Below, one piece after another: positions 7,042 through 31,990 of a stretch of DNA of 64,000 nucleotides (the stretch's first letter is position 1; each line of letters starts with the position of its first letter). Source of the stretch: Streptomonospora mangrovi (GTDB taxonomy: Bacteria > Actinomycetota > Actinomycetes > Streptosporangiales > Streptosporangiaceae). The notes below the pieces were generated by a model. That model did not search any database and was not told the origin of the DNA. It saw only the letters and a program-made list of their open reading frames with translations. The position numbers and the translations under genes were made by a program. Location: positions 124,001-188,000 of the forward strand of contig NZ_JAJAQC010000009.1 in NCBI RefSeq assembly GCF_027604915.1, given 5' to 3'.

Positions 7042-7106
7042 GGCGGGTGCCGCCCGCGCCCGCCGCCGCGCGGACCGCCCGCGCGGGCCGCCGAGGGGTG
7101 CGCGCC

Positions 7107-7136: not shown

Positions 7137-7177
7137 GCGCTCCGGCGCTGAAGCGGAAGGCGCGCCGGACCCCGGGT

Positions 7178-8701: not shown

Positions 8702-10059
8702 CGGCGGGCTCCTTCCGAGGGGACCCGCTCCTGGGGTGCGGGCGCGCCCGCCGGGTAGGACAGCCCGGCGCTGTCGTCGCCGGCCGAGGACAGGTAGCGC
8801 GGCTTGGCGATGTGGGACTCCCGGGCCAGCTCCTCCAGGGAGACCAGGGTGCCCGGGGCGACCGCCTCGACCTCGGCCGCGGCCCCCAGGTGCCGCTCCA
8901 GGCCCGCGCGCAGGGCGGCCGCGGCGTCGCCGGCCGCCGAGTCCGCGGCCTCGATCAGGACCCGCAGCGCGCCGCGGTCCTCGACCGCCCGCCAGAACAG
9001 CACGCCCAGGTCGGGGGGCAGGGAGTACACCGCCTCCTCCACGTCGCAGGCGTAGACCCGGCGCCCGCCCAGGGTGACGCCCTGCTCCCAGCGTCCGAGC
9101 ACCCGCACCCGGGGCAGCGCCCAGCCGCAGGGGCAGGGTTCGTAGGAGAGTTCGACGGCGTCGCCGGTGTCGTAGCGCAGCAGCGGCATCGCCTCGCGGT
9201 ACAGGGTGGTGAGGACGAGCCGCCCGCTCCCCTCGGGCGCGGCGGTGCCGGTGGCGGGGTCCAGGATCTCGGGCAGGTAGCGGTCGGCCCACAGGTGCAG
9301 GGCGCCCTCGGGGCACTCGCCGGCGAGGTTGGAGCCGCACTCGGAGTTGCCGTAGCTCAGGGCGACGTCGCAGCCCCACAGGTGGGTGATGCGCCGGCGG
9401 CGCGCCTGGCTCAGGGGTTCGCCGGTGGCGATGAGCGTGCGCAGCGCGGGGGCGTGGTCGCGCGGCGCCGAGCCCGTCAGCCGGGCGCAGGCCGCCCACA
9501 GCAGCGGCTCGGTGGGCAGGGCCGCCGCCACGGTGACGCGCAGGTCGCGCAGCAGGCCCAGGACCCGCCGGTAGGTCATGGCGGTCGAGCGGGCGTCGGC
9601 GGGCACGGTCAGCGCGCCCGCCGCCCGCGCGGCGGCGTGGACCTGGTGGCCGATGGTGACCATCGCGTAGGGCACGCGCACGAGCACGGTGTCGTCCTCG
9701 GTGAGGCCGTACCGGCCGCGGCGGAAGCGGTCGAGCATCTCGGCCCAGTCGGCCTCGGTGTGGAAGGAGGCGGTGGCCTGGCCGAGGGAGGTGCCGCTGG
9801 ACTCGTGGTAGGAGGCGAGCCGCCGGCGGGCCACCGCGACCATGCCGAAGGGGTGGTTGGCGCGCAGGTCGGCCTTGGTGGTGAGGGGGAGGTCGGCGAG
9901 GTTCTCCAGGTCCACGCGGGGGACGTCCGGGCCGAACCGGCTGCGGTAGAAGTCGCTGTTGGCGGCGGCGCGCACCACGGCGGGCAGCCGATCCCGCCAG
10001 AGCGCCCGCAGGCCGTCGAAACCGGACCATTCGCCGATACTTGGGGGAATGTGCACCAT
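8698..10059 (-). CDS. Phenylacetate-CoA ligase / coenzyme F390 synthetase-like adenylate-forming enzyme
   Basis: The protein has 453 residues and starts at ATG 10059, with GAAGGGAA about 10 bases upstream. The PaaK/F390-synthetase family is indicated by ESSGTSLGQAT (about 86-96, the ATP loop, with SLG where most have TGK), the LSYGNSECG segment, RYDTGD, and the cysteine pair CPCGW. The N-terminal LPLTTKADLRAN is also characteristic. These enzymes activate aryl or alkyl acids as adenylates and pass them to CoA, or sometimes to amines or carrier proteins. It is translationally coupled to the downstream ANL gene, so the two probably act on the same or consecutive acids. It diverges from the threonine-synthase-like gene across a 157-base promoter region. 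Confidence 0.85.
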   Translation of the reverse strand: MVHIPPSIGEWSGFDGLRALWRDRLPAVVRAAANSDFYRSRFGPDVPRVDLENLADLPLTTKADLRANHPFGMVAVARRRLASYHESSGTSLGQATASFHTEADWAEMLDRFRRGRYGLTEDDTVLVRVPYAMVTIGHQVHAAARAAGALTVPADARSTAMTYRRVLGLLRDLRVTVAAALPTEPLLWAACARLTGSAPRDHAPALRTLIATGEPLSQARRRRITHLWGCDVALSYGNSECGSNLAGECPEGALHLWADRYLPEILDPATGTAAPEGSGRLVLTTLYREAMPLLRYDTGDAVELSYEPCPCGWALPRVRVLGRWEQGVTLGGRRVYACDVEEAVYSLPPDLGVLFWRAVEDRGALRVLIEAADSAAGDAAAALRAGLERHLGAAAEVEAVAPGTLVSLEELARESHIAKPRYLSSAGDDSAGLSYPAGAPAPQERVPSEGARR

Positions 10060-10216
10060 GGAATGTGATTCCCTTCTTTTCCCGCTTTTCCGGGATGCGG
10101 ATGAGGGTAATTAAATGAAATTCCCTGGTACTACGGTTACCCGCGGGTGATAACGGGAAAACAAATCAACGGAGCCAAGTACCCCCGCCGGTGCCGCCGG
10201 GAAAGGAAAACCCCCT
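10060..10216. promoter_or_regulatory. Divergent promoter region inside the biosynthetic cluster
   Basis: This 157-base gap between divergent genes is markedly AT-richer than its surroundings (for example GGTAATTAAATGAAATTCC near 10107-10125). It must hold both promoters. I could not settle on -35/-10 pairs. AAAGGA at 10202-10207 is the Shine-Dalgarno of the rightward gene. Confidence 0.45.
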
Positions 10217-11548
10217 ATGGGCTTCACCCTGCGCTATGAGGAACTTATCGGCGGATCCACCGCGGGCGCGGAGCGAACACAGTTCGCGCTGGTCTGCGTG
10301 GTCTGCGGGAGATCACCCGGACGCCTTCTGGCCAACCGCTGCGGCGACTGCGGCGGCGCCATCGACGCCATCCACCCGTTGGAAAACGTGTCACTCGCCG
10401 GCGGGGAAAACCCCCTCCAGCGTTACTTCGACCTCCTCCCGGTCCGGGAACGCGGAAACCTCCTCTGGCTCGGCGACGGCGACACCCCGTGTTTCCGGGC
10501 CGAGGGATTCGGTCGCCGCACCGGAATTCCCGGGCTCGTCCTGAAAGACGAAAGCGCCAATCCCACGCGCAGCACAAAAGACCGGATCGCCTCGGTGGGG
10601 CTCTCCCGGTTCGCCGAACTCGGCGTGAAGCGGTTCGTCATGGCCTCGACCGGAAACAGCTCCACCGCCTACGCGCGCGGGGTGCAGTCGGTCACCGGGT
10701 TCGAGATGGCGCTTTTCTGCGGCGTGCGGTTCCGCCACCGCCTCAACTACCCCGACCACAGCGCCGTCACCACCTACCTGGTCGAGGGCGACTTCGTCGC
10801 CGCCGGCCAGGCCGCCCGCCGCTTCGCCGAACGCACCGGCGCCCTCTCCGAGGGCGGCTTCTTCAACCTCGCCCGGCGCGAGGGCCTGAAGCTCGCCTAC
10901 CTGGAGGCGTTCGACTGGATGGCCGACCCCCCCGACTACGTCTTCCAGGCAGTCAGCAGCGGCATGGGCCTGCTGGGCGCCTACAAGGGCGCCCTGGAGT
11001 ACCTCCGCCTGGGGCGCCTCGCCCGCATGCCCCGGTTCGTGGCCGTGCAGCAGGCCAGTTGCGCCCCCATGGCCCACGCCTACCGCGAGGGCGCCGAGGT
11101 GATCGCCCCCCGGCACGTGGTCCACGACCCCCGCGGCCTGGCCGAGGCCATCCTGCGCGGCAACCCCGGCCAGACCTACCCCTACATCCGCTACCTCTGC
11201 CGGACCAGCGGGGGCCGGATCCTCTCGGTCGGCGACGACGAGATCCGCGGCGCCCGCGCCCTGCTGGCCGACACCGAGGGCGTGGCCGTGTGCCACGCCA
11301 GCGCCACCGCCCTGGCCGGCGCGGTGCGCATGCGGCGCGAGGGCGACCTCCCCGAGGACGCCGCCGTCCTGGTCAACCTCACCGGCGGCGACCGCACCGG
11401 CTGGCCGGTGCCCACCCGCTGCCACGTCGTGGACGCCGAGTTCCCCACCGGGTCGGTGGAGTGGTCCGGGCCGCCCGCCCCGCCCGCCGGCGCCGCACCG
11501 GCGGGCGGGGCGGGCGGGCAGGAGGGGCGGGACACGTGCGTGCTGTAG
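10217..11548 (+). CDS. Threonine synthase-like PLP enzyme (fold type II)
   Basis: The protein has 443 residues from ATG 10217. An N-terminal knuckle has two CxxC pairs (C27/C30 and C42/C45). The PLP lysine is K121 in NPTRSTKDR and the phosphate-binding loop is STGNSS (144-149). The order and spacing match threonine synthase/threonine synthase-like proteins, which act on O-phosphohomoserine or related beta/gamma-leaving-group amino acids. Its place among secondary-metabolism-type genes argues for a specialised beta- or gamma-replacement rather than housekeeping threonine synthesis. The last 30 residues are Pro/Ala/Gly-rich and are encoded by an 18-bp perfect inverted repeat (11473-11515). The end overlaps the next gene by 13 bases. 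Confidence 0.83.
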   Translation: MGFTLRYEELIGGSTAGAERTQFALVCVVCGRSPGRLLANRCGDCGGAIDAIHPLENVSLAGGENPLQRYFDLLPVRERGNLLWLGDGDTPCFRAEGFGRRTGIPGLVLKDESANPTRSTKDRIASVGLSRFAELGVKRFVMASTGNSSTAYARGVQSVTGFEMALFCGVRFRHRLNYPDHSAVTTYLVEGDFVAAGQAARRFAERTGALSEGGFFNLARREGLKLAYLEAFDWMADPPDYVFQAVSSGMGLLGAYKGALEYLRLGRLARMPRFVAVQQASCAPMAHAYREGAEVIAPRHVVHDPRGLAEAILRGNPGQTYPYIRYLCRTSGGRILSVGDDEIRGARALLADTEGVAVCHASATALAGAVRMRREGDLPEDAAVLVNLTGGDRTGWPVPTRCHVVDAEFPTGSVEWSGPPAPPAGAAPAGGAGGQEGRDTCVL

Positions 11549-12669
11549 CCGTCGTGGGCGCGGGCGTCCTCGGCGCCGCCGTCGCCTGGAACCTCGCCCG
11601 GCGCGGCCTGCGCGTCGTGGTGGTGGAGCGCGAGCCGGTGCCGGCCGCCGGCGCCAGCGGTGCCTCCTTCGCCCGGGCCACCGCGTTCGGCCGGGCGCCC
11701 CGGGCCTACTTCGAGCTGCGGCACGCCGGCCTGCGGACCCTGCACCGGCTGCGCGAGACCGGCGTGCCCGGCTTCCACCCCTGCCCCAGCCTCGTCTGGA
11801 GCCGCGACGACCCCGCCCTGGCCGACACCGTCGCCACGGCGCGCCACCAGGGCTACCGCGCCTGCCACGGCCCCTGCGCCGGGTTCCCGGTCCCCGCCGG
11901 GCCGGGCCGCGCCGTGCCCGCCGCGCGGGCGGCCTACCTCCCCGCCGAGGGCTGGGTCGACCTCCCCGCCATGGCGGACTGGATGCTGGCGCGGGCGCGC
12001 CGCTTCGGCGCCGACATCCGGTTCGGCGCGCGGGCCGTGGACATCCGCACCGGCGCCGACGGCGCGGTCCGCGCCCTCGTCCTGGCCGACGGCGGCGCCG
12101 TGGCGGCCGACACCGTGGTCAACGCCGCCGGCGCCGGGGCCGACCGGGTGGCCCGGCTGGTCGGCGGCCCCCTCGCCCTGGCGCCCAGCGCCGGGCTGCT
12201 GGCCGAGGTCCCCCTGGCGCGGGAACTGGACGCCATGCTGCTCGCCCCCGACATCAGCATCCGCCCGGCCGGCGCCGGCGCGGCGCTGCTGCGCTCCGAC
12301 GCCATCGACTCCCGGCTGGGCGCCGCGCCCGCCGCCGACCTGGCGGCCGAGGCGGCCGCCGAACTCCTGGAGCGCGCCGCGGCGGTGCTGCCCGAACTCG
12401 CCGGCGCCCGCCCCACCGCCGCCCGGGTGGGCGTGCGCGCGTTCCCCGCCGACGGCTACCCCAGCGTCGGCTTCCTCAGCGGCGTGCCCGGCTACTACGA
12501 GGCCGTCACCCACAGCGGCGCCACGCTGGGCCCTTTGCTGGGGCGGCTGGCGGCCGAGGAGATCGCCTCGGGGCACCGCTCCCGCCTGCTCGCCCCCTAC
12601 ACCCCCGACCGCTTCGGCGGTTCCGCCGTACCCGACCAGGGAGCCGGTATCGCACCGGCGCACACGTGA
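11536..12669 (+). CDS. FAD-dependent amino acid oxidase/dehydrogenase (DAO family)
   Basis: The protein has 377 residues. GTG 11536 was chosen because AGGAGG lies 10 bases upstream and the Rossmann motif begins at once (VVGAGVLGAAVAWNLARRG, GxGxxG). The glycine-rich VVNAAGAGADRVARLVG and the C-terminal PSVGFLSGVPGYYEAVTHSGATLGP match the DAO family, which includes glycine oxidase, sarcosine oxidase and D-amino acid dehydrogenase. It would oxidise a C-N bond of an amino acid or secondary amine to an imine or oxo acid. It overlaps the threonine-synthase-like gene and is followed after 10 bases by the aminomutase-like gene, so one transcript is likely. Confidence 0.83.
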   Translation: MRAVAVVGAGVLGAAVAWNLARRGLRVVVVEREPVPAAGASGASFARATAFGRAPRAYFELRHAGLRTLHRLRETGVPGFHPCPSLVWSRDDPALADTVATARHQGYRACHGPCAGFPVPAGPGRAVPAARAAYLPAEGWVDLPAMADWMLARARRFGADIRFGARAVDIRTGADGAVRALVLADGGAVAADTVVNAAGAGADRVARLVGGPLALAPSAGLLAEVPLARELDAMLLAPDISIRPAGAGAALLRSDAIDSRLGAAPAADLAAEAAAELLERAAAVLPELAGARPTAARVGVRAFPADGYPSVGFLSGVPGYYEAVTHSGATLGPLLGRLAAEEIASGHRSRLLAPYTPDRFGGSAVPDQGAGIAPAHT

Positions 12670-12679
12670 GAGGACGAGG

Positions 12680-13978
12680 ATGACCGGCACCATCAGCGAC
12701 GTGCAGGCACCACAGTCGAACAAGACCGCCTACGACGGCCTGCGCGACGTCGTCGCGGGCGGGGTCAGCAGCAACATGCGGGCCCGGGGCGTGGCGGCGC
12801 CGATCGTCGTGGACTCCGCCCGCGGCGCCCGCGTCCGCGACGTCGAGGGCAACGAGCTGATCGACGTCAACATGGGCTACGGCCCCCACATCTTCGGCTA
12901 CGCCGACCCCGACGTCACCGAGCACATCGCCGCGCAGTTCGGGCGCGGCCACCTCACCGGGCTGCCGCACCGCCTCGACCGCCGGGCGGCGGAGCTGGTC
13001 GCCGAACTCGTGCCCGGCGTGGAGCAGTTGCGCTTCGCCAACTCCGGCACCGAGGCGCTGATGTCGGCGGTGCGGCTGGCGCGGGTCCTCACCGGCCGCA
13101 CCCTGGTGCTGACCTTCGGCGGCCACTACCACGGCTGGAGCGAGACCCTGCTGCGCACCCGCGAGTGCGACGGCTACCGCCCCCGCCCCCTGGCGCCGGG
13201 CATGATCCCCGAGGCCATGGCGCACACCCTCCAGGTCGGCTGGAACGACGTCGCGGCCGTGGAGGCGGTGTTCGAGGAGCACGGCGGCGACCTCGCCGCG
13301 GTGCTGTGCGAACCCGTCCTGGCCAACGCGGGCGTGGTGGCGCCGGCCCCCGGGTTCCTGGAGCTGCTGCGCCGGCTCACCCGCTCCGCCGGCGCCCTGC
13401 TGGTCTTCGACGAGGTCATCACCGGATTCCGGGTGGCGCGCGGCGGCGCGCAGGAGCGCTACGGCGTGGAGCCCGACCTCACCGTGCTCTCCAAGGTCAT
13501 GGGCGGCGGGTTCCCCGTGGCGGCGTTCGGCGGCCCCCGCGATGCCATGAAGCCCCTGGCCCAGTTGGAGGCGTTCCACGCCGGCGTCTACGCCGGCAAC
13601 CACGCGGCCATGGCCGCCGTCGCCGCGTCCCTGGCCAAGGTCCGCTCCCTGCCGGCGCTCTACACCGAACTGGAGGCGCTGGGCGCCTACGCCGAGTCGC
13701 GGGTGCACGAGGCCGCCGCGGCGGCCCAGCGCACCCTCCAGGTGCGGCGCGTGGGCTCGGTGATGTCGGTGGCCCTGACCAGCCCCGCCACCGGCGCGGT
13801 CGACCCGGGCGGGCACCGCCGCCTGCAAACCGCCTGCCAGGCGCGCGGGGTGTACTTCCACCCCATCCCCGACGAGCCGTGGTTCCTCAGCACGGCCCAC
13901 ACCCGCGCCGACCTCGACACCGTCGCCGAGGTCCTGGCGGAGTCTTTGGCCGAGGTCGCCGCCGAGGGCGCGCGGTGA
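12680..13978 (+). CDS. Class III PLP enzyme, glutamate-1-semialdehyde 2,1-aminomutase-like
   Basis: The protein has 432 residues and starts at ATG 12680 after GAGGACGAGG. Motifs of class III aminotransferases are clear: NSGTEALMSAVRLAR (phosphate loop), FGGHYHGW, LLVFDEVITGFRV (pyridine-N aspartate) and LSKVMGGGFPVAAFGG with the Schiff-base lysine. The order HYHGW then DEVITGFR, and the length, are those of GSA-aminomutases rather than omega-transaminases. As a specialised copy it could shift or remove an amino group on a small substrate. It is a third, structurally distinct PLP enzyme in the cluster, and its stop overlaps the next gene's GTG. Confidence 0.85.
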   Translation: MTGTISDVQAPQSNKTAYDGLRDVVAGGVSSNMRARGVAAPIVVDSARGARVRDVEGNELIDVNMGYGPHIFGYADPDVTEHIAAQFGRGHLTGLPHRLDRRAAELVAELVPGVEQLRFANSGTEALMSAVRLARVLTGRTLVLTFGGHYHGWSETLLRTRECDGYRPRPLAPGMIPEAMAHTLQVGWNDVAAVEAVFEEHGGDLAAVLCEPVLANAGVVAPAPGFLELLRRLTRSAGALLVFDEVITGFRVARGGAQERYGVEPDLTVLSKVMGGGFPVAAFGGPRDAMKPLAQLEAFHAGVYAGNHAAMAAVAASLAKVRSLPALYTELEALGAYAESRVHEAAAAAQRTLQVRRVGSVMSVALTSPATGAVDPGGHRRLQTACQARGVYFHPIPDEPWFLSTAHTRADLDTVAEVLAESLAEVAAEGAR

Positions 13979-14817
13979 CCCCGCCCCGCGCGGGGTACGA
14001 GGCGTCCTACAGCAGGAGCGCCGCCAACTGGGACCCCCACATCGCCCACTTCACCACCTTCGGCGAGCGCCTGGTGGAGCTGGCCGACCCCCGGCCGGGC
14101 GAACGCGTGCTCGACGTCGGCGCGGGCCGGGGCGCCTGCCTGTTCCCGGCGGCCGAGCGCGTGGGCCCCCAGGGGCGCGTCCACGGGGTCGACCTGGCTG
14201 AGGGGATGGTGGAGTGCCTGGCGGCCGACATCGCCGAGCGCGGCGTGCGCAACGCCACGGCCGGGCGGATGGACGCCCAGACGCTCACCGTGCCCGACGC
14301 CTCCTACGACCTGGTGACGAGCGCGTTCACCCTGTTCATCCTGCCCGACCCCGCCGCCGCGGCCGCCGGGTTCCTGCGCGCGCTGCGGCCGGGCGGGCGG
14401 TGCGCCGTCTCGGTCCCCGACGGCCCGCTGCGGCCCGCCGGCCTCCACGACATCGAAGCGCTCTGCCACTCCTACGCGCGCCGGCTGAACGGCGGCGCCG
14501 CACCGGTCGGCATGCCCGACTTCGAACTGGACCCCGCCGCGCTCCTGGCCGAGGCCGGCTTCACCGGTGTCGAGGCCACCGAGGAGGTCCGGGAGTTCGT
14601 GTTCCCCAGCGTGGACGCCTGGTGGGAGTGGACCTGGACGGTCAACGTCCGCGCGTTCTACGAGCGGCTGCCGCCGCCGCTGCTGGAGGAGCTGCGGCGC
14701 GAGGCGTTCGCGCTGCTGACCCCCCTGGTGACCGACAAGGGCCTGCCCGCCGTGGCGGGCGCCCGCTACGCCACGGCCGTGCGCCCCGCCGCGCCCGGTC
14801 TCCGGCGCCGCATGTGA
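13975..14817 (+). CDS. SAM-dependent methyltransferase
   Basis: The start is GTG 13975, overlapping the previous stop as GTGA; the protein has 280 residues. Motif I is RVLDVGAGRGACLF and the acidic residue of motif II lies in VHGVDLAEGM. The segment YDLVTSAFTLFILPDP matches motif IV, and LRPGGRCAVSVP the usual post-motif strand. The N-terminus YEASYSRSAANWDPHIAHFTTFGERLVELA is typical of UbiE/type 11-like O-, N- or C-methyltransferases of natural product clusters. It presumably methylates an intermediate or the end product of this locus. A perfect 16-bp hairpin follows the stop, so transcription may largely end here. Confidence 0.85.
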   Translation: MTPPRAGYEASYSRSAANWDPHIAHFTTFGERLVELADPRPGERVLDVGAGRGACLFPAAERVGPQGRVHGVDLAEGMVECLAADIAERGVRNATAGRMDAQTLTVPDASYDLVTSAFTLFILPDPAAAAAGFLRALRPGGRCAVSVPDGPLRPAGLHDIEALCHSYARRLNGGAAPVGMPDFELDPAALLAEAGFTGVEATEEVREFVFPSVDAWWEWTWTVNVRAFYERLPPPLLEELRREAFALLTPLVTDKGLPAVAGARYATAVRPAAPGLRRRM

Positions 14818-14820
14818 CCG

Positions 14821-14864
14821 CGCCCCGCCGGCGGCCCGGCCCCGCAACGGCCGCCGGCGGGGCG
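14821..14864 (+). terminator. Perfect 16-bp stem-loop after the methyltransferase gene
   Basis: CGCCCCGCCGGCGGCC (14821-14836) and its exact complement (14849-14864) are separated by a 12-base loop. It starts 4 bases after the stop codon. It could end the 10217-14817 transcript or attenuate transcription into the ligase gene at 14911. Confidence 0.65.
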
Positions 14865-14887
14865 CTCCCGTGGTCCCTTCATCAACC

Positions 14888-14899
14888 CCTCACGTGAGG
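14888..14899. promoter_or_regulatory. Perfect 12-bp palindrome overlapping the Shine-Dalgarno of the ligase gene
   Basis: CCTCACGTGAGG is fully self-complementary, and its right end GTGAGG supplies part of the Shine-Dalgarno for ATG 14911. It could be an operator or a small RNA hairpin that hides the ribosome site. I see no second copy of the full palindrome, but I could not search exhaustively. Confidence 0.35.
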
Positions 14900-14910
14900 A
14901 CGGAACCGCC

Positions 14911-16536
14911 ATGAGCACACTGCTGGAGGTACTGGCGTGGGACCGGGACCGCCCGGTCCTCCACGACGCCCGCGACGGGTGGCTGACCGCCGGATCGGCC
15001 GTGGACACCGTGTACCGGCTGGCCCGCGCCCTGCGCGAGCGCGGCTGCGGCCCCGACCGCATGGCCGCCCTGTTCGGGCCGCTGAGCACCGGGCTGTACC
15101 TGTGCTCCCACGCGGTGGAGCACGTGGGCGGGGGGCAGGCCGAGGTGCCCATGGGGCTGCCGGCGCCGGAGTACGTCCGCCTCTTCGCGGAGTTCGGGGC
15201 CGGGTTCGTGGTGGCCGACCCCGAGGCCGCCGACGCGCCGGCGCTGCGCGCGGTCGCCGCCATGCCCGGGGTGCGGCTGCTCACGCTGGGGGCCGCCGCC
15301 GAGGGCGAGGACCTGCTGGCGGAGCTGGACCGCCACTCACCCGAGCCGTTCCCGCCCCAGGCGCGCCCGGGCGCGCCCGTCCGCGTCGGCCTCACGGGGG
15401 GCACCACGGGCCGCTCCAAGCCGGTCGTGCGGGTGTTCACGGAAAAGATGCCCGACCCGCGGACCATCTGGTACGCGCGGATGGTGGCCGCCCACGGCCC
15501 CGGGCCGCGCGTGGTCCTCGCCGAGCAGTTGAGCGGGGTGGGCCGGACGCTGATGAACGGCGTCCTGGCGGTCGGCGGCCAGTGCGTGCTGCTGCCCGAC
15601 TTCGATCCGCCGCGGGTGGCCGGGGCGGTGCAGGCGCACCGGGCCACCCACGTCTTCCTGCCCACCCACCAGTTGCGCCGGCTGCTGGACCACCCCGGCG
15701 CCGCGGCCGCCGACCTGTCGTCGCTGCGCTGCGTGATCACGGGGGGCGGGATGATGACGCCCGCGCTGCTCAACCGCGCGGTGGCGCGCCTGGGCCCCAT
15801 CGTCTACAGCTCCTACGGCCAGACCGAGGCAGGCAACATCGCCTGGCTGGAGCCCGAGCACTACACCGGGGCGGACGCGGAGGCGCGGCGCAGTTGCGGG
15901 CGCCCGGTGCCCGGGGTGGACATCGAGATCCGCGACCTCCAGGGGCGGGTGCTGGGACCGGGCGAACGCGGGCGGGTGTGGGTGCGCACGCGCCTGCTGA
16001 TGGCCGGGTACCTGAACCGCCCCGAGGACACCGCGCGGGTGCTGCGCGGGGGCTGGCTGGACACCCAGGACATCGGCTACCGCACCGAGGACGGCCTGCT
16101 GGTCCTGCTGGGCCGGGCCAGGAACGCGATCGCCGTCGCCGGCGCCACGGTGTTCGCCGTGGAGGTCGACGCCGTCCTCCAGGAGCAGCCGGGGGTGCTG
16201 GACTCCGCGACCTTCGGGGTCCCCGGTCCCGACGGCGAGACCCTGCACAGCGCTGTGGTGCGGGACCCGGCGGTCCCGGTGGAGGCGGCCGCGCTCCGGG
16301 CCGCCGTGGGGGAGCGGCGGGGCGCGGCGTACGCGCCGTCGTCGGTGCTGTTCGTGGCGCGGATCCCCTACACCCGGTCCCACGACGTCAACTGGGACCT
16401 GCTGCGGCGCTGGCACGCCGAGGGGGTCCCCGACGACGCCGCCGAGGACGCCGCGAAGGCGGCGCCCGCCGCGCCCACCTCCCCCGGGGCGGGCGCGGCG
16501 GGCGCCACCGGTCAGGCCGACCTGCCCCTGCGGTAG
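14911..16536 (+). CDS. ANL superfamily (AMP-dependent ligase-like) enzyme lacking the A10 lysine, paralogue 2
   Basis: The protein has 541 residues from ATG 14911. It parallels the product of 7178-8701 along its length: LTGGTTGRSKP (161-171, A3), SYGQTEAG (A5), and TQD in place of TGD at A7 with the aspartate kept. The hinge is LGRARNAIAVAG. The A10 site reads PYTRSHDVNW, with D492 where the lysine normally lies. The C-terminal 35 residues are a disordered Ala/Pro-rich tail. It probably arose by duplication with paralogue 1 and both lost the lysine. A function in acyl transfer, in using a pre-activated acid, or as a non-adenylating partner are all possible. Its 3' end overlaps the convergent TetR gene by 25 bases. 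Confidence 0.85.
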   Translation: MSTLLEVLAWDRDRPVLHDARDGWLTAGSAVDTVYRLARALRERGCGPDRMAALFGPLSTGLYLCSHAVEHVGGGQAEVPMGLPAPEYVRLFAEFGAGFVVADPEAADAPALRAVAAMPGVRLLTLGAAAEGEDLLAELDRHSPEPFPPQARPGAPVRVGLTGGTTGRSKPVVRVFTEKMPDPRTIWYARMVAAHGPGPRVVLAEQLSGVGRTLMNGVLAVGGQCVLLPDFDPPRVAGAVQAHRATHVFLPTHQLRRLLDHPGAAAADLSSLRCVITGGGMMTPALLNRAVARLGPIVYSSYGQTEAGNIAWLEPEHYTGADAEARRSCGRPVPGVDIEIRDLQGRVLGPGERGRVWVRTRLLMAGYLNRPEDTARVLRGGWLDTQDIGYRTEDGLLVLLGRARNAIAVAGATVFAVEVDAVLQEQPGVLDSATFGVPGPDGETLHSAVVRDPAVPVEAAALRAAVGERRGAAYAPSSVLFVARIPYTRSHDVNWDLLRRWHAEGVPDDAAEDAAKAAPAAPTSPGAGAAGATGQADLPLR

Positions 16537-24398: not shown

Positions 24399-25235
24399 TC
24401 ACCCGGTGCCGGGGGCCGGGGAGTCGGGGATCCGCACCGCCGCGATCTGGGTGGCCTGGGCGACCAGCCGGCCCTTGGCGTCCCACAGGTGCGCGGCCAG
24501 GTCCATGGTGCCCGCGCCCACGTCGGTGGCCCGCAGCCGGGTCCGCAGCGCACCGGGCGCCGGCAGCCGGCGCAGGTAGGCGCTGAACTGGATCGTGGGC
24601 GCCCAGCCCGCGACGCCCAGGTCGAGGGTCGCCGAGGGGATCGGGTCCAGGGCCACGAGCACGCCGAGCGGGTCCCAGGCCGAGCCGTCGGCCATGCGCT
24701 GCCAGCCGAGGACCAGCCCCCGGCCCGAGGGCTGCCCGACCGCGAACCCCAGCAGGCCCGGGTCGAGGCGGTGCTCGACCGATTCCAGCAGCGGCGCGCT
24801 CAGCCCCAGTTCGGGCACCTCCGGCAGGGCCAGGAAGCACTCCTCCTCCGGCGGCAGCTCCGGCGGCGCGGCGTCCGACCACCAGGCGTCGCGGTCCTCC
24901 AGCACGCCCTGGGTGAACAGGCACTCGACCTTGGGGCGGCCGTCCTGGAGCAGGCGGGCGCGCAGGTGGGAGGAGGTGCGCCCGACCCGCAGCACCTCGA
25001 CCTCGGCGACCGCGCCGCCGGGCGCGGCGGCCTCCAGGAAGGACGCGCTCACCGCCGTGGGGTGCGGGCGGTCCTCGGCGGTGAGCGCGGCGGCGCGGCC
25101 CAGGACCGCCAGCAGGTAGCCGCCGTGCGGCTTGCCGCCGACGCTCCAGCGGGGGTCCAGCGTGGCGCCGAACTCCCGCACCGGGCCGGCCGTGCCGCGC
25201 GGGCGCACCTCGGTCGCGGTGCCGAAATCACTCAT
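24399..25235 (-). CDS. Acyl-CoA/acyl-ACP thioesterase-like protein (double hotdog)
   Basis: The protein has 278 residues and starts at ATG 25235 with GGAAAGGA upstream. The N-terminal FGATLDPRWSVGGKPHGGYLLAVLGRAA and the mid-protein break between two similar halves match the TesB-like/4HBT_3 thioesterase group of actinomycetes. Its ATG lies inside the last codons of the upstream three-domain gene (ATGAGTGA overlap), so the two are translationally coupled. The natural inference is that it releases the acyl chain from that protein's ACP domain, or edits misloaded ones. The exact catalytic residues cannot be fixed without alignment. Confidence 0.82.
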   Translation of the reverse strand: MSDFGTATEVRPRGTAGPVREFGATLDPRWSVGGKPHGGYLLAVLGRAAALTAEDRPHPTAVSASFLEAAAPGGAVAEVEVLRVGRTSSHLRARLLQDGRPKVECLFTQGVLEDRDAWWSDAAPPELPPEEECFLALPEVPELGLSAPLLESVEHRLDPGLLGFAVGQPSGRGLVLGWQRMADGSAWDPLGVLVALDPIPSATLDLGVAGWAPTIQFSAYLRRLPAPGALRTRLRATDVGAGTMDLAAHLWDAKGRLVAQATQIAAVRIPDSPAPGTG

Positions 25236-28122
25236 GGGGGGTCCTTTCCGGAGGATGATGGCGGAACCCGGGGCCGGGGACGGCGACGGGAACCTGGCCG
25301 GGAGCGGGACGGGGCGCGGTGCCGGGATCGTCGCGGCCGGGACCGGGACCGGGACCGGGGCCGGTGCCGGGACCGGTGCCGGGGGCCGGTTGGGTGCCGG
25401 GTGCCGCCGCCGACCCGGCCGGCAACTCGTCCGGCAGCGCGGCCAGGCGGTGTGCGACCTCCTCGACGGTGGCCGGCTCCAGCAGCAGGGTGGGCGGCAC
25501 GCGGCGGCCCAGCCACTCCGCCAGGTCGCCCTGCACCCCCGCCACCGCCAGGGAGTCCACCAAGTGGTACTCCAGCGGGTCTCCCGCGTCGACCGGACCG
25601 CCGGTCTCGGCGGAGATCCGCGCCAGCAGCCAGTCGCGGATCTCGGCGGCGCCGCGCCCGCGCGCCGGCGGGCCGCTCGCGGCGGGCGGGTCCGCGCTCC
25701 GCGCCGGGTGCCGGCCGGTCGCGGGGGGCCGGCCGGCCGCCACGGGCGCCTCGGCGGTGTCGGCGAAGAAGCGGCCGACCAGGTCGCGGGAGTAGGCCAC
25801 CGTGGTCTCGACCAGCTCGAAACCGAGCAGGCCGCCGGCGTAGTAGGTGCGGTCGCGGCCCTGCATGCGCTCGAACCGGTCGAGCACGCCGTCGGCGAGG
25901 TCGGCGGCGGGGAAGTGCGGCATGAACGGCCACCGGCGCACCAGCAGCACCTCCTCCACCCGCCCGCCCAGCCGGGCGACGTCGGCCCGCACCCGGGCGG
26001 CCGCGCCGTCGGCGTCGAGGTCGTCGGCGCCGTAGAGGTAGCCGGTGTGGACGTCGCTGCCGGCGTGGCGGTGGTGGTAGGCCACCAGGTGCCCCGGCTC
26101 GGCCCCGGCGGCGGTGTGCTCGCCCACCAGGTAGAAGCCCTCCCGGAGCAGGCCCGAGGCCCGGAACACCACGGTGCGGTAGTCGACCGTGCGGATCCGC
26201 GCCGCGAGGTCGCGCTCCTCCTCGGTGGTGTCGAGCAGGTGGGCCACCCGGTCCAGGGCCGGGGTGAGGACCAGCGCGTCCGCGTGCACCGTGCCGCCGC
26301 CGGTGCGCACCGCCACGCCCTCTGCGCCGCGCTCCACCGCGCGGACCTCCACCCCCGTCCGCACGTCGGGCAGCTCCTCGGCCACCCGCCGCCACAGCCG
26401 CGCGAAGCCGTCGCGGACGGTGAAGGCGCCCGCGTGGCCGGTGGGCACCGGACCGGTCGAGAACAGGCCGGTCAGCTCGGCGTATTTGACGAAGTACAGC
26501 GCGGGCAGGTCGCCGCGCAGGTGGCCGTAGCCCGAGGCCGTGTAGCCCTCGCCCAGGGACGCCGCCATGGCGGCCAGGCCGCCGCCGTCCAGCCACTCGG
26601 CCACGGGCCGGGCCAGGTGCGCGGCGGAGTGGGCCAGGCCGGGGCGGCGGATGTCGGGGAAGTGCTCGGCGCGCAGCCGCGCGTAGCGGGCGAACGCCTC
26701 AGGGCGGAAGAACGCGGTGTCGGGGCGGCGGGCCGCCCCGGCGCCGGGGTCGTGGACGCGTGTGGGCGTGGCGTCCTCGGTGCCGACCCCCAGGTCGGCG
26801 GCGAGCCGGGTCAGCTCCGCGTACTCGGGGGTGCAGATGTGGGCGCCGAGGTCGTAGGCGCGGCCGTCCACGCGGATCGACGCGGACTTGCCGCCGACCT
26901 CGGGGGCGCTCTCCAGCACCACGGTGCGGTGGCCGCGCCGCTCCAGTTCGCGGGCGGCCGACAGCCCGGCCGGGCCGGCGCCGATGACGCACACGGTCAG
27001 CGGGCGGTGCGGTCGCCCGCCGCCGGCGGGCGGCGCGGCCAGGATGGGGGCCGGGGTCGGGGCCGGGCCGGTGCGGGCCGCGTGCGCCGCCCGGTAGACG
27101 AGGGCGCGGACGTGGTTGACCGAGGCGGGCTCGTGCGGCGACCGCGCCAGCGCGATGCCCAGGCCCTCGGGCGCCCGCGCCGGGTCGAACAGGAGGGAGT
27201 CGGCGAGCGCGGTGTCGAGCAGGGCGTCGAACCGCAGTTCGGCGACGGTGCGGTAGGGGTGGAGGTCCTCGGGCCACAGCCGGGCGGGGTCCAGCGCCGC
27301 GCGGTCGGCCTCGGGATCGGCGCCCAGGGGGTAAAGCTGCACCTGGAGCAGGACGGTGAACCCGCCGCCGTCAATCTGGGCGCGCAGCGCGTCGCTGAGC
27401 AGGGTCGGCGGCCGGTCGTCGCCCGGCGCGCGGGGCGGCGACTGCGGCGGGGTGACCGGGAACCGCCGGCCGGCGGGGTCGTGGCGGCCGGGGTCGGGGG
27501 CTCCGGCGAAGGGGAGGACGCGGTAGCGGGCCAGCCACGGGCGGCCGGTGCCGTCCACATAGGCGCGCGGCACCTGCGAGTGGTAGTGGTAGCGGGGGTA
27601 GGGCGCGGGGTCGCGGACCTGCTCCCACACGGCCGCGCGCAGGCCGGGGTCCGCGCGCGCCATCTCCTCGCGGTCGGCGTCGGTGCCGAAGGTGAAGCGG
27701 TGGAAGTGTGCGGCGCTGCGCGCGAACAGGGTGCGCCCGGTGTTCAGGGTGAGGGCGAACGCGGCGCGGCCGGGGTCGTCGGGGTGCGCCGGGTCGCCGA
27801 ACAGCAGCGAGGCGCCGCGGGTGCCCGGCGGCACCTCGTCGGCCCGCTCGCCGCTGCTGTAGCGGGCCAGCACCGGCACGCGGGTGCCGGGGGCGAGGAA
27901 GGGGTGCGGCGCGGGGCCGCCCGGGTCGGCGGTGAACACCGCCTCGCCGCGCACGCCGACGGCATGGGCGTGGAAGAAGCGCCGGCGCGTGCGGCGGGAG
28001 GCCCGCACCATCACCTCGAAGCGGGACAGCAGCGCGGCGAAGTCGGCGTCGTGGTCGTGCAGGGCGGGGTCGTCGGGGCCGGTGGAGAAGCGCAGCCCAC
28101 CCGCGCCGCCGAGGGCGCTCAC
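25228..28122 (-). CDS. Three-domain fusion: catalase-like heme domain, fatty-acid-isomerase-like FAD domain, acyl carrier domain
   Basis: The protein has 964 residues. GTG 28122 overlaps the FAAL stop (GTGA). Residues about 10-350 are catalase-related: distal His in RFFHAHAVGVRG (H51), distal Asn in LTLNTGRTLF (N127), and RALVY with R339 and the likely heme-ligand Y343. Residues about 376-787 form a flavin amine-oxidase fold: VCVIGAGPAGLSAARELERR, the E of VVLESAPEVGGK, then GYGHLRGDLPALYFVKY and ERMQGRDRTYYAGGLL. From memory the last two closely resemble bacterial polyunsaturated fatty acid isomerase. Residues about 825-898 are an acyl carrier domain with S857 in VDSL as phosphopantetheine site. 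A Pro/Gly-rich tail follows. The enzyme should act on acyl chains held on its own ACP. The chemistry (isomerisation plus peroxide-dependent oxidation) is inferred. Confidence 0.8.
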   Translation of the reverse strand: MSALGGAGGLRFSTGPDDPALHDHDADFAALLSRFEVMVRASRRTRRRFFHAHAVGVRGEAVFTADPGGPAPHPFLAPGTRVPVLARYSSGERADEVPPGTRGASLLFGDPAHPDDPGRAAFALTLNTGRTLFARSAAHFHRFTFGTDADREEMARADPGLRAAVWEQVRDPAPYPRYHYHSQVPRAYVDGTGRPWLARYRVLPFAGAPDPGRHDPAGRRFPVTPPQSPPRAPGDDRPPTLLSDALRAQIDGGGFTVLLQVQLYPLGADPEADRAALDPARLWPEDLHPYRTVAELRFDALLDTALADSLLFDPARAPEGLGIALARSPHEPASVNHVRALVYRAAHAARTGPAPTPAPILAAPPAGGGRPHRPLTVCVIGAGPAGLSAARELERRGHRTVVLESAPEVGGKSASIRVDGRAYDLGAHICTPEYAELTRLAADLGVGTEDATPTRVHDPGAGAARRPDTAFFRPEAFARYARLRAEHFPDIRRPGLAHSAAHLARPVAEWLDGGGLAAMAASLGEGYTASGYGHLRGDLPALYFVKYAELTGLFSTGPVPTGHAGAFTVRDGFARLWRRVAEELPDVRTGVEVRAVERGAEGVAVRTGGGTVHADALVLTPALDRVAHLLDTTEEERDLAARIRTVDYRTVVFRASGLLREGFYLVGEHTAAGAEPGHLVAYHHRHAGSDVHTGYLYGADDLDADGAAARVRADVARLGGRVEEVLLVRRWPFMPHFPAADLADGVLDRFERMQGRDRTYYAGGLLGFELVETTVAYSRDLVGRFFADTAEAPVAAGRPPATGRHPARSADPPAASGPPARGRGAAEIRDWLLARISAETGGPVDAGDPLEYHLVDSLAVAGVQGDLAEWLGRRVPPTLLLEPATVEEVAHRLAALPDELPAGSAAAPGTQPAPGTGPGTGPGPGPGPGRDDPGTAPRPAPGQVPVAVPGPGFRHHPPERTPHE

Positions 28123-29918
28123 CGCGCCACCGCCGCCGCGTCGGCGCCGGCCGCGCCGCCGGCGCCCGCCAGGTAGGCCGCGCGGCAGGCGGCCCGGCGG
28201 ATCTTGCCGCTGGTGGTCTTCAACACCAGGCCGCGCCCGCCCACGACCACGTCGTCGCAGGGGATGCCGTGGGCGTCGGCGACCGCGCGGCGGACCGCGC
28301 GCACCAGGGCGGATTGGTCGGCGGGGGAGGGCTCGGCGGTGGTCTCCACCAGGACGACCAGGCGCTCGCCGGCGGCCGCCGCGTCGTCGGCGGGCACCGC
28401 GAAGGCCGCCACCCCGCCGGAGCGCACGAGGGGGTGGCAGCCGCGCACGGTGTCCTCGATGTCCTGCGGGTAGTGGTTGTGGCCGCGCACGATGATCATG
28501 TCCTTGAGGCGGCCGGTGACGAAGAGTTCGCCGTCGTGGAGGAAGCCGAGGTCGCCGGTGCGCAGGTAGGGGCGGGGGTCGCCGTCGGCCGTGCGCGCCT
28601 CGAAAACCTCGCGGGTCTGGTCGGGCAGGCCCCAGTAGCCGCGTGCCTTGGTCACGGAGTCGACCCAGATCTCGCCCACGCGGCCGGGTTCGCACGGTTG
28701 CCCGGTGTCGGGGTCGACCACGCGCAGGCGGGCGCCGGGCTTGGTGATGGTGCCGCAGCCGTAGTAGACGGCGGCGGGCCGCGCGGGGTCGTCGCCGACG
28801 GGCACGGCCCGGCCCAGCTTGATGGCGTCGGGGTCGACCCGCAGCGGGCCGCTGCCGCCCATCGTGAGGCTCAGCGTGTGCTCGGCCAGGCCGTAGGTGG
28901 GGTAGAACGCCGTGGGCGCGAACCCGGCGTCGGCGAAGGCGGCCAGGAAGCGCTCGACCGTGGCGGGCCGGATCAGTTCGCCCGAGGAGCCCGCCACCCG
29001 CAGCGACGACAGGTCCCAGCCGGCGCGCTGCTCGGGGGTGGTCTTGCGCACGACCAGGTCGAACGCGAAGTTGGGGGCGGCGGTGTGGGTGGCGCGCACC
29101 CGCGAGGCGACCTCGAACCACACGGCGGGGCGGCGCAGGAAGCTCAGCGGGGACAGCACGTGGGTGCGGGCGGAGTGCCCGACCAGGGTGTTGAGCAGGA
29201 AGCTGATCAGACCGAGGTCGTGGAAGTGCGGCACCCACGTGACCGCGGTCGTGTCGTCGCCCAGGTGGAGGTCGCGGGCGATGGAGTCCAGTTCGTGGTG
29301 GATGTTGCGGTGGGTGACCACCACGCCCTTGGGTGTGCCGGTGGAGCCGGAGGTGTACTGGAGGAACGCGGGGGAGTCAACGTCGGCGGGGGTGTGCCAG
29401 CGGCCGAGGTCGGGGGCGTGGTCGGGCACCGGACCGGGGCGGTCGGTGTCGGCCCAGGGGAGGTCGGGCCAGGCGGGGGCGCCGGGCGCCGGCGGCCGGG
29501 CGCGCGCGCCGGCGTCGAGCAGTTCGCGGTAGGGGCGGTGGGTCAGCACGAGGTCGGCGCCCGAGCTGGCGGCGACGGCCGCGAGCACCCCGATGTCGTG
29601 GCCGGGGCGGAACGGGTTGGGCGGCGCGACCGGGACCGGCACCAGTCCCGCGGCCTGGCAGCCCAGGAACGCGCTGACGAAGTCGAGCGAGGGCAAGTAC
29701 ACCAGGAGCGCCCGCGCGCCGGGGGACAGGCCGCGCGCGGCGAGGTCGGCCCGGATGTGCTCGGCCTCCCAGGCCAGGCGGCGGGTGGTCATGGTGTCGA
29801 CGTCGCGGCCGTCGTCGTCGGTGAAGACGAGGAGTTCGCGGTCGGGGACGCGGTCGTGCAGGTCGCGGAACCGCTGCGGCACGGACCGCTCGGTCCGCTC
29901 GGTGTGCGTGTCGTCCAC
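28119..29918 (-). CDS. Fatty acyl-AMP ligase (FAAL)
   Basis: The protein has 599 residues and starts at GTG 29918, with GGAGAGGGTGA upstream. ANL motifs are complete: YTSGSTGTPKG (188-198), YGLAEHTL, YLRTGDLGF, GRLKDMIIVRGHNHYPQDIE, and the C-terminal catalytic lysine in TTSGKIRR. The HDLGLISFLL region and the segment VVRKTTPEQRAGWDLSSLR are characteristic of FAALs, which make acyl-adenylates and load them on ACPs rather than CoA. It lies directly upstream of and overlaps the ACP-containing fusion gene, so it should charge S857 of that protein. The chain length is unknown. In contrast to the two ANL enzymes near 8 and 15 kb, every catalytic motif is intact. Confidence 0.9.
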   Translation of the reverse strand: MDDTHTERTERSVPQRFRDLHDRVPDRELLVFTDDDGRDVDTMTTRRLAWEAEHIRADLAARGLSPGARALLVYLPSLDFVSAFLGCQAAGLVPVPVAPPNPFRPGHDIGVLAAVAASSGADLVLTHRPYRELLDAGARARPPAPGAPAWPDLPWADTDRPGPVPDHAPDLGRWHTPADVDSPAFLQYTSGSTGTPKGVVVTHRNIHHELDSIARDLHLGDDTTAVTWVPHFHDLGLISFLLNTLVGHSARTHVLSPLSFLRRPAVWFEVASRVRATHTAAPNFAFDLVVRKTTPEQRAGWDLSSLRVAGSSGELIRPATVERFLAAFADAGFAPTAFYPTYGLAEHTLSLTMGGSGPLRVDPDAIKLGRAVPVGDDPARPAAVYYGCGTITKPGARLRVVDPDTGQPCEPGRVGEIWVDSVTKARGYWGLPDQTREVFEARTADGDPRPYLRTGDLGFLHDGELFVTGRLKDMIIVRGHNHYPQDIEDTVRGCHPLVRSGGVAAFAVPADDAAAAGERLVVLVETTAEPSPADQSALVRAVRRAVADAHGIPCDDVVVGGRGLVLKTTSGKIRRAACRAAYLAGAGGAAGADAAAVAR

Positions 29919-30772
29919 CCGTCACCCTCTCCGCGCGGCGCCGGACCGTTCAGACCTGCGGTGAGCAGCCGAAAGTCCGTCGAAAGTCAACGCCGCGGTT
30001 CCGTCGTTCCCCGGTCAATTCGGAAACACCCTACCGAGGCCGGGTAAAAGTGAGTTGAAATCCGCCCGGGCGCCCGGTGAGGGGCGGCGGGATTCCGTGC
30101 GCGGTTACCGGTCGGTATTTCAACGGAATGGTCGGCGTGGTGATCGTCTAACACCGCCGGGACGTGGCGTGCGTCTCATTCCCGTATTTTCCGTGCGGTC
30201 CGGGGGAGGCGCGCCGGGCGCGCGGCGGGGGCGGCGGTGCCCGGACGCAAGGTCGGGGCGCGCCCGGTGGCGGAAGCCGGACCCCGCCGCCGAAGGGAGC
30301 GCGGTGCCGGACAGGGGCCGCCGGCCCGTGCGGCGGCGCGGCCGCCGCGCCGCCCGCCGGTATCCGGGCGTCGGTTACCGCCGTTCCATGACCGCCGCAA
30401 ATCCGCCGCGCCGGTGTTTTCCCAGGGACGAACCAGGGGGTTTTGCCCATCTCGCAGGCGCGAAATAGAGGCGCCGTTTGCCGTAGGCGCGGAGTCGGGC
30501 ATATCCAGGTCCGGGACCGGTGAACGGGGTGCCGAAACCGCACCGCCGCGCGGAAGCGAGGTGACACCCGCCGTGCTCGGAAAAAGCGGCGCTTGGACAT
30601 CCGGATACCGCGTGGAATTCCCCCATTGCCCGGCCGTGATTTCCGCCCCGCGATCCCGCGCGGGAATTTCCGGCCGGCCCTCTCCCGCCCGGGTGCCGGC
30701 GGCGCCGGGGAGCGCCGCCCGGCGCCGCCGCTCCGCCCGCCGCAGTTCCGACCGCCAGAGTGAGGTTCACCC
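29919..30772. other. 854-base gene-poor divergent region between FAAL and P450
   Basis: No convincing gene is seen; short open frames on both strands are Arg/Pro/Gly-rich with no family look. GC is lower near 29960-30060 and 30395-30480. It must contain the promoters of the leftward FAAL operon and of the rightward P450. CAGGGACGAACC (30423-30434) recurs in two other intergenic regions. An unusually long leader for one of the two transcripts, or a small RNA, is possible but unproven. Confidence 0.5.
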
Positions 30773-31990
30773 ATGACCGAGACGACCACCACGCCCCGCC
30801 CGCAGTACCCCTTCAGCTCCCGGGGCGACAGCCTCGCCCCCGAACTGGACGACCTGCGCGGCGAGTGCCCCGTCGCCCCCGCCCTCAGCAGCGCCGGCGC
30901 GGAGGTCTGGCTCGTCACCGGCCACGCCGAGGCCCGCCGGGTGCTGGCCGACACCCGGCTCTTCGACCGCGCGGCGGTGGGTCGGCCCGGCGCCCCGGTC
31001 CAGGACACCCCCGTCCACGCGCCCGAGGTGGTGGACGCCATGGGCTTCCTGCGCCGCGCCGGCCTGGCCGGCGAGGTCCGGCGGGCCCTCGGCCCCGAGC
31101 ACCCCGACCTGCCCGAGGCGTGGGTGCGCGCGGTGGTCCGCCGGGAACTGGCGGCCCTGCTCGTCGGCCCCCGGCCCGGCGACCTCCAGCACCACCTGGC
31201 CGCGCGGGTGGCCGGCGAGGTGATGTGCCGGCTGGTCGGGATCCCCCTCGCCGACCTCCCGCGCGTGGCCGCGCTCGCCGACGGCGACGCCGCCCTGCGG
31301 GGGCCCGGCGCGGAGCCCGCGCACGACCGGGCCGGGATGCGGCGCTATCTGGCCGGGCTGATCGCGCAGGTCCGCGACGGCACGGCGGCCGCCGCCGGCA
31401 TCCCGGCCACCGGCCTCCTGCACCGCCTGGTCGCCCGCAACGACCCCGCCCGCGGCCTGACCGGCGACCAGTTGGCCACCATCCTCGCCCACTTGTTCGT
31501 CCTGGGCTACGCCGACCTGACAAGCTTCCTCGGGGTGGGCGCCCACAACCTGCTGCGCCGCCCCTGGGCGTTGGAGGAGTTGCGCGCCGACCCCGCCGGC
31601 GCCGACCGGCACATCGAGGAGCTGCTGCGCCTGAGCGTGGTCCTGGGCAGCGCCCTGGCCCGCATCGTCACCGCCGACACCGAACTGGCCGACCAGCCGC
31701 TGAGCGCCGGCGACATGGTCCTGGTCTCCACCGACGCCGCCAACCACGACCCCGAGGTCTTCGCCGACCCCCACCGCTACGACCCCCGGCGCAGCCCCAA
31801 CCCCCACATCCGCTTCGGCCACGGCCCCCACCACTGCCCCGGCGCCCCCCTGGCCCGCCGCGTCGCCCGCATCGCCTTCACCGAGCTCGCCCACCACCGC
31901 ACCCTCCGCCTCGCCGTCCCCCCGGAGCACCTCCAATGGCGCCCCGACCACACCGCCATCACCCTGACCGCCCTCCCCGTCCGCTGGTAG
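30773..31990 (+). CDS. Atypical cytochrome P450
   Basis: The protein has 405 residues from ATG 30773 with GTGAGG upstream. The heme loop FGHGPHHCPGAPLAR gives C355 as thiolate ligand and EELLR gives the ExxR pair (E283, R286). The I-helix reads LFVLGYADLTSFLG. Aligned with the usual AGxE/DT, the acid is A247 and the threonine is D248, so the acid-alcohol pair for O2 activation is missing. The C-helix also lacks the normal PxHxRLR block. P450s without this pair often work on peroxides (peroxygenases, allene oxide synthase or hydroperoxide lyase types). It is divergent from the FAAL/fusion/thioesterase operon. A role on their product is my inference. Confidence 0.85.
   Translation: MTETTTTPRPQYPFSSRGDSLAPELDDLRGECPVAPALSSAGAEVWLVTGHAEARRVLADTRLFDRAAVGRPGAPVQDTPVHAPEVVDAMGFLRRAGLAGEVRRALGPEHPDLPEAWVRAVVRRELAALLVGPRPGDLQHHLAARVAGEVMCRLVGIPLADLPRVAALADGDAALRGPGAEPAHDRAGMRRYLAGLIAQVRDGTAAAAGIPATGLLHRLVARNDPARGLTGDQLATILAHLFVLGYADLTSFLGVGAHNLLRRPWALEELRADPAGADRHIEELLRLSVVLGSALARIVTADTELADQPLSAGDMVLVSTDAANHDPEVFADPHRYDPRRSPNPHIRFGHGPHHCPGAPLARRVARIAFTELAHHRTLRLAVPPEHLQWRPDHTAITLTALPVRW

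Follow-up and report, generated by a model that had tools for sequence, protein, structure and literature searches.

The window analysed here, a stretch of 64,000 nucleotides of the Streptomonospora mangrovi genome (positions 124001-188000 of contig C98; 6.36 Mb in 121 contigs), encodes a protein that joins a catalase-related heme domain, a flavin adenine dinucleotide (FAD) domain of the Propionibacterium fatty-acid isomerase (PAI) type and an acyl carrier protein (ACP). The gene of this fusion is overlapped on its upstream side by that of a fatty acyl-AMP ligase (FAAL) and on its downstream side by that of a thioesterase (TE), and a cytochrome P450 gene diverges from the three. The architecture is real and conserved: it recurs, with variations, in other actinobacteria, one of which has an organic-hydroperoxide reductase (Ohr) domain where the heme domain would stand. 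These domain identities, their order, the overlaps, the conservation and the exchange of heme for Ohr come from sequences and structure models. We favour, at about even chances, a reading in which the locus encodes a tailoring line for an unsaturated fatty acyl chain, loaded by the FAAL and tethered on the ACP, with an N-terminal domain that handles peroxide. A preliminary description of this DNA had placed the four genes and their reading frames correctly, and both overlaps that it reported, GTGA and ATGAGTGA, are present in the DNA.

Residues 376-786 of the fusion match PAI (Protein Data Bank, PDB, entry 2b9w) in phmmer with an E-value of 9.5e-32, and a profile made from eight FAD domains matches it over nearly its full length (E 9.6e-62), the best amine oxidase reaching 8e-25. 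PAI is also the first-ranked Foldseek match of the AlphaFold2 model of the fusion (target TM score 0.86). By sequence, amine oxidases are far more distant from the FAD domain than PAI is, and the GxGxxG motif announced in the preliminary description is found as GAGPAG at residues 381-386. The homology spans nearly the whole length of PAI; the differences are that the window domain is built into a carrier-bearing protein, and that PAI Phe193, which we take to be the substrate lid, has no conserved counterpart, the family showing Thr, Ala, Asp, His or Leu there.

The N-terminal part is of the catalase type in fold, nearest to coral allene oxide synthase (cAOS, 1u5u), which matches residues 44-345 in phmmer (E 6.8e-16 to 2.8e-15) and is the sixth Foldseek match of the model (E 3.6e-20, target TM score 0.76, root-mean-square deviation 2.9). 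The Pfam Catalase model stays below threshold on the fusion (E 0.069), so that this domain would escape Pfam used alone. The alignment pairs R48, H51, R87, N127, R339 and Y343 with cAOS R64, H67, R102, N137, R349 and Y353. Four of these, H51, N127, R339 and Y343, had been proposed as heme residues in the preliminary description, and the first ~350 residues, on whose catalase-like nature it had staked its reading, are catalase-like by both sequence and fold. The positions of R48, R87, R339 and Y343 are invariant across the 10 heme-bearing members of the family, and those of H51 and N127 are His and Asn in eight members each, with both kept in seven (window included). A model of the heme domain folded alone, without an alignment, had a mean pLDDT of 35.5 and was discarded as useless.

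The model of the whole fusion, made from an 18-row alignment, has a mean pLDDT of 76 and a pTM of 0.50, which leaves the relative placing of the domains unsure. In the ACP region it predicts helices at residues 825-840, 850-853, 857-871 and 886-895; Ser857 opens the third, a position that matches the start of carrier-protein helix II, with pLDDT below 50 at 856-858. The Pfam PP-binding model gives 16.6 bits in the window fusion, under its gathering score of 20.8, and passes with 35-56 bits in the fusions of the four relatives scanned (L010, L012, L014, L058). The carrier motif D/E-S-L/M/I is present in all 13 loci of the family, and together with the model helices it supports Ser857 as the carrier serine of a carrier fold.

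Among solved AMP-forming enzymes, the window ligase is by sequence closest to FAALs. Its PDB relatives include 7r7f (6.3e-101), 3kxw (2.6e-93), FadD23 (2.6e-77) and FadD32 (2.4e-72); the last two, named fatty-acid--AMP ligases, are among 10 PDB matches at E <= 1e-60, and the first two, listed as 'Polyketide synthase' and 'Saframycin Mx1 synthetase B', are presumably FAAL structures as well. The best NCBIfam model is the fatty-acid--AMP ligase NF004509, at 366 bits and below its cut-off of 775. The thioesterase matches Pfam 4HBT_3 and 4HBT_3C (E 4.9e-21 and 5.8e-22) and PDB 3bbj (7.3e-27). We count the logic of FAAL loading, the three domain identities and the carrier, all put forward in the preliminary description, as supported.

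Table 1. Position of the genes, domains and overlaps of the locus in the window.
Feature	Position	Strand	Details
FAAL	28119..29918	(-)	599 aa; Pfam AMP-binding E 7.3e-58
HEME-FAD-ACP fusion	25228..28122	(-)	964 aa, GTG start
Catalase-related heme domain, residues ~12-351	27070..28089	(-)	cAOS sequence and fold match
PAI-type flavin domain, residues 376-786	25765..26997	(-)	profile and Foldseek match to 2b9w/PAI
ACP domain, residues 825-895	25438..25650	(-)	model helices; Ser857 codon at 25552-25554
Pro/Gly-rich low-complexity C-terminal tail, residues 899-964	25231..25428	(-)	pLDDT < 50; unconserved in alignment
Double-hotdog thioesterase (4HBT_3 / 4HBT_3C)	24399..25235	(-)	278 aa
GTGA overlap (4 bases) of FAAL stop and fusion start	28119..28122	(-)	DNA
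ATGAGTGA overlap of thioesterase start and fusion stop	25228..25235	(-)	DNA
Intergenic stretch separating the divergent FAAL and P450 genes	29919..30772	.	gene calls
Cytochrome P450, CYP121-like, pathway membership uncertain	30773..31990	(+)	405 aa; Pfam p450 E 1.6e-17

Related loci were sought with peptide patterns of the window protein, a procedure that may miss distant members. It gave 30 loci, nine of them with an FAD-ACP protein, which together with the window, L056, L057 and L058 make the 13 considered here (Table 2); the relatives are all from actinobacteria, and L011, L015 and L021 share one Lentzea genome. The other 21 loci, left out, match the FAD part only: three were read (L016, L029 and L038, with an FAD protein of 401-436 residues) and 18 were judged by their matched range and shared gene families. 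These three and similar Streptomyces loci carry a stand-alone relative of the FAD domain, about 55% identical, in a conserved locus of Gfo/Idh-type, ABC-transporter and LacI-type look-alikes (going by sequence starts), a setting for a PAI-type enzyme that differs from that of the fusions.

The heme domain is found in 10 of the 13 loci, Ohr in one and neither in two. A FAAL lies directly upstream of the fusion in 10, and in eight of these the gene calls give an overlap of 1-4 bases between its stop and the start of the fusion; L012 would add another if the GTG at 4654 is the start, and in L057 a gap of ~26 bases separates the two. Heme, FAD, ACP, thioesterase and P450 form a single protein in two genomes (L010 and L011). 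The genome-context search finds the domain order to be real and common to the relatives, and the all-in-one fusions, the neighbouring PUFA-synthase genes and the exchange of heme for Ohr strengthen the reading given in the preliminary description. In L058 (9351-12794), ~270 residues lie between the heme and FAD domains and have no Pfam match at E <= 1e-4.

Table 2. Gene and domain layout of the 13 loci (slashes separate genes, hyphens join domains of one protein).
Locus	Layout
Window, L056, L013	FAAL / HEME-FAD-ACP / hotdog TE
L009	small hotdog TE / FAAL / HEME-FAD-ACP / another hotdog TE
L057	FAAL / HEME-FAD-ACP
L010	PfaD / PfaA / PfaC / FAAL / HEME-FAD-ACP-TE-P450
L011	PfaC, 436-aa gene on opposite strand, FAAL / HEME-FAD-ACP-TE-P450
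L012	FAAL / HEME-FAD-ACP-TE / PfaD / PfaA (cut by contig end)
L014	PfaD / PfaA / PfaC / FAAL / Ohr-FAD-ACP-TE-P450
L015	FAAL / FAD-ACP-TE-P450; PfaD, PfaA, PfaC upstream, other strand
L021	FAD-ACP-TE-P450
L034	HEME, FAD-ACP-TE as two overlapping frames (TE match cut short)
L058 with L077	PfaA, PfaC, PfaD, TE / HEME-insert-FAD-ACP

The closest relative, L056, belongs to a second species of the genus (genome G003). Its fusion is 79% identical to that of the window, and it has the same order of histidine kinase, response regulator, CorA, thioesterase, fusion, FAAL and divergent P450, with a different far side of the P450. Because this ortholog keeps the layout and one flank at such an identity, and because of the phmmer E-values to PAI and cAOS, the fusion is not a product of chance. 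It is rare: it occurs in two of the six genomes of the genus, and a query with the heme domain (E <= 1e-10) finds five of 297 genomes of the family and two of 296 of the class, own genome included in each count and the second of the class being already known. A DNA search for paralogs in the own genome gave nothing beyond short matches of up to 165 bases, the best of which (100 bases at 77%, in the FAD-motif stretch) we take as a match of motif or composition, and a search of plasmids gave a single FAD-domain match, from Photobacterium.

The most telling variant is the protein encoded at 9569-13681 of L014, from Micromonospora sp. CB01531, downstream of a polyunsaturated fatty acid (PUFA) synthase and a FAAL. 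Its 1,370 residues read Ohr-FAD-ACP-thioesterase-P450; residues 4-134 match Ohr (TIGR03561, 165 bits for a cut-off of 88.85; PDB 1n2f, E 5.1e-40), with Cys56 and Cys119 within motifs common to 1n2f, and the remainder is 72% (FAD), 72% (ACP), 82% (TE) and 76% (P450) identical to L010. Two unrelated peroxide-linked domains thus occupy one place of otherwise similar proteins. In a tree built from PAI and 21 FAD domains of the family (22 rows), L014 joins L010 and L011 at 100/100, and the window, L056, L013, L009 and L057 form a clade at 98/100. Ohr probably replaced heme in L014 rather than the reverse, a direction that is likely but not proven because the fork joining these two groups has a support of 84/91, below the mark of firm support, PAI and L058 have long branches, and the deeper branching order is partly unsettled. 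Organic hydroperoxides are better substrates of Ohr than H2O2 is (PMC4486171), and the enzyme is described as part of the response to fatty acid hydroperoxides (PMC4486171, PMC5962072). Heme and Ohr in the same place are an unusual natural hint at the chemistry of a domain that is itself uncharacterised.

From this arrangement we infer every chemical step, the substrate, the formation of peroxide, the feeding by a PUFA synthase and the participation of the window P450. The FAAL would convert a free fatty acid into acyl-AMP and pass it to the fused ACP, on the phosphopantetheine arm of Ser857; the PAI-type domain would make the double bonds of the bound chain conjugated through removal and return of a hydride; the heme domain would act on a peroxide carried by the chain, reducing or rearranging the acyl hydroperoxide; and the thioesterase would release the product. 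Some relatives could receive the chain from a PUFA synthase and have a P450 built into the line. Systems that load lipids onto an ACP through a FAAL and include tailoring enzymes are known, e.g., from polyyne and alkyne pathways. FAAL, carrier, tailoring enzyme and thioesterase are common to them and to the window, but their tailoring is done by separate membrane desaturases, whereas in the window this role would fall to the carrier-fused heme and flavin domains. The catalase-related hemoproteins known from oxylipin pathways, in the fusions of coral cAOS or cHPL with lipoxygenase and in the enzymes of Anabaena and Acaryochloris, have the same fold, proximal Tyr/Arg, distal His/Asn and heme-binding Arg residues as the window domain. 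They join a lipoxygenase, as documented for the catalase-lipoxygenase fusion of Anabaena (PMC11719350), whereas the window heme domain joins a flavin domain of the isomerase type and an ACP. It also has Phe for the Thr before the distal His and lacks Lys107 of cAOS. The latter, proposed to bind the free carboxylate (PMC5617202), has no Lys counterpart in any of the 10 heme-bearing members (Arg in L058), which a tethered substrate would permit. At position 150, where the coral hydroperoxide lyase has Phe and cAOS has Leu (PMC5617202), nine of the 10 have Phe, from which we draw nothing firm.

Several observations weigh against such a line. Both heme and Ohr are absent from L015 and L021, as regards the protein and the flanking stretches examined. 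The position of PAI Arg88, which we assume to be the carboxylate ligand, is Arg in 10 of the 13 loci, window included, and would suit a free acid. The distal His/Asn pair is altered in three of the 10 heme-bearing members (Y/S in L057, R/N in L034, H/V in L058), and cAOS T66, just before the distal His, corresponds to Phe50 in the window (Phe in eight, Met in one and Ala in one of the 10). Pfam finds no lipoxygenase domain in the fusion or the 24 window proteins scanned (no search for lipoxygenase covered the entire genome), and no oxygenase that makes hydroperoxides was seen among the annotated genes. The own genome has no match to PfaD, and PfaC is matched by ketosynthase (KS) domains only. 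A title cited in PMC10813956 gives the distal Thr-His pair as a hallmark of reaction with fatty-acid hydroperoxides; since all 10 members lack it, the domain can by this criterion be called catalase-related, while an enzyme of the cAOS type is not proven. The preliminary description had suggested an oxylipin-like or conjugated lipid made from an acyl-ACP. Its domain identities, carrier and FAAL loading stood, and the missing Thr-His pair, the lack of a lipoxygenase among the annotated genes and the CYP121-like nature of the P450 weigh against a plain oxylipin.

In a broader version, actinobacteria would make carrier-bound oxylipins: a polyunsaturated chain supplied by a PUFA synthase or a FAAL would remain on the ACP, the flavin and heme (or Ohr) domains would generate and convert an acyl hydroperoxide with no lipoxygenase involved, and P450 and thioesterase would act afterwards, at the extreme all within one protein of 1,591 residues; we regard this as rather improbable. 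Equally modest is the probability that we give to a protective role, where the FAD domain would make a conjugated polyenoyl-ACP, the N-terminal domain would merely destroy peroxides arising on this easily oxidised chain, and the product would be a conjugated fatty acid instead of an oxylipin. The replacement of heme by Ohr, a detoxifying reductase, in L014 speaks for protection, as do the two loci with neither domain and the variable distal residues. Yet cells usually possess free catalases and Ohr, and 10 of the 13 loci have nevertheless kept a heme domain of their own, with Arg339 and Tyr343 invariant in all 10.

A different division of labour, which we judge unlikely, would make the FAD domain an oxidase that desaturates the acyl chain with O2 and yields H2O2, leaving the heme domain to dismutate H2O2 or to act as a peroxygenase. 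Membership in the flavin amine oxidase superfamily, the catalase-related fold and the catalase activity of the cAOS of Capnella imbricata (PMC5617202) speak for it, but the match is to the isomerase PAI, and the Lys of putrescine oxidase that we take to activate O2 aligns with Arg644, not with a Lys. The cAOS of Plexaura is said not to scavenge H2O2 (PMC5617202), and the preference of Ohr for organic hydroperoxides over H2O2 (PMC4486171) also tells against an oxidase. The heme domain could finally be catalytically dead, serving as a structural or substrate-binding module, as the distal substitutions in three of 10 members might suggest; this is very improbable, given that Arg, His, Asn and Tyr are kept in the window and six others and that Ohr in the place of heme points to a peroxide function.

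PUFA-synthase genes (PfaA, PfaC or PfaD) adjoin six of the 13 loci (L010, L011, L012, L014, L015 and L058), PfaD and PfaA of the L014 cluster exceeding their NCBIfam cut-offs, and the window annotation has no PUFA synthase genes beside the fusion. Since the own genome has only the KS matches to PfaC and no PfaD, a free fatty acid, entering through the FAAL, is the most likely substrate of the window system. That it is unsaturated is suggested by the PAI-type domain; the own genome encodes two homologs of fatty-acid desaturases. PfaD scores above cut-off in six of the 11 genomes examined, G035 among them, where the match lies 87 kb from the fusion beside a multi-KS protein of 4,441 residues. 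The 40 kb around it hold none of the partners of the fusion, and we rejected it as part of an unrelated polyketide cluster. PUFA-synthase-like clusters for 'secondary lipids' with uncharacterised products were listed for several actinobacteria in 2011 (PMC3098273). The PfaA/PfaC/PfaD neighbours of our six loci resemble them at a general level and may or may not be of the same types; the main text of that paper has no 'catalase', 'amine oxidase' or 'P450', and the window genome gave no such synthase. The present loci would give clusters of this general sort a defined tailoring line and a domain logic that can be tested. In L064 (8618-12088) and L066 (7592-10735), from Amycolatopsis and Lentzea, a trio of genes lies divergently upstream of PUFA-synthase clusters; the trios are alike by their sequence starts and include one protein with a subtilase-like motif and one larger protein of membrane type.

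The part of the P450 is less clear, and it is nearly an even question whether it is an unrelated neighbour, the pathway ending at FAAL, fusion and thioesterase. The closest PDB entries of the window P450 are PtmB (2.1e-56), then CYP121 and GymB1, and those of its L056 ortholog are likewise; we take all three to be enzymes of diketopiperazine pathways. The P450 fused in L010 is nearest to others (8yhn, then PksS and the 6-deoxyerythronolide hydroxylase EryF, with PikC also among its relatives). The five fused P450s share only 27-34% identity with that of the window, which, like its L056 ortholog, lacks the usual I-helix Thr that all five have in their AGLETT stretch, and no P450 match was found in the stretches examined of L009, L013 and L057. 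Being CYP121-like and unlike the fused P450s, the enzyme has an open membership in the pathway. On the other side, the gene is divergent and adjacent to the FAAL in L056 too, in five relatives ACP and P450 are parts of one protein, and the annotated neighbours include no cyclodipeptide synthase. This position, shared by two species of a single genus, and the analogy with the fusions make a participation of the window P450 plausible; of the place that the preliminary description had given it in the pathway, the conserved divergent arrangement stood, and its kind is not that of the fused enzymes. A comparison of flanks, meant to show if the presence of the P450 follows that of the FAAL genes, was unusable: among the six genomes of the genus, close CorA homologs are found in G000 and G003 only, with 44% matches in two others.

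Among the papers listed in searches of the open full-text literature, judged by titles and the starts of abstracts, we found no description of the HEME-FAD-ACP layout, with most subscription papers outside this scope, and the statement in the preliminary description that no pathway with this layout had been described holds to that extent. The terms catalase, P450, AMP ligase, FAAL and hydroperoxide do not occur in PMC13291983. The loci extend two known kinds of systems, carrier-bound tailoring of fatty acids and catalase-related lipid chemistry, and if the proposed chemistry is right, that of heme and flavin on fatty acids would extend from free acids to carrier-bound chains.

Elsewhere in the window, positions 2490-16536 encode a radical SAM protein, class V and class III aminotransferases, a PLP-dependent enzyme, a DAO-type FAD enzyme, a methyltransferase and three AMP-binding enzymes, a group that looks like a separate biosynthetic cluster for an amino-acid-derived product.

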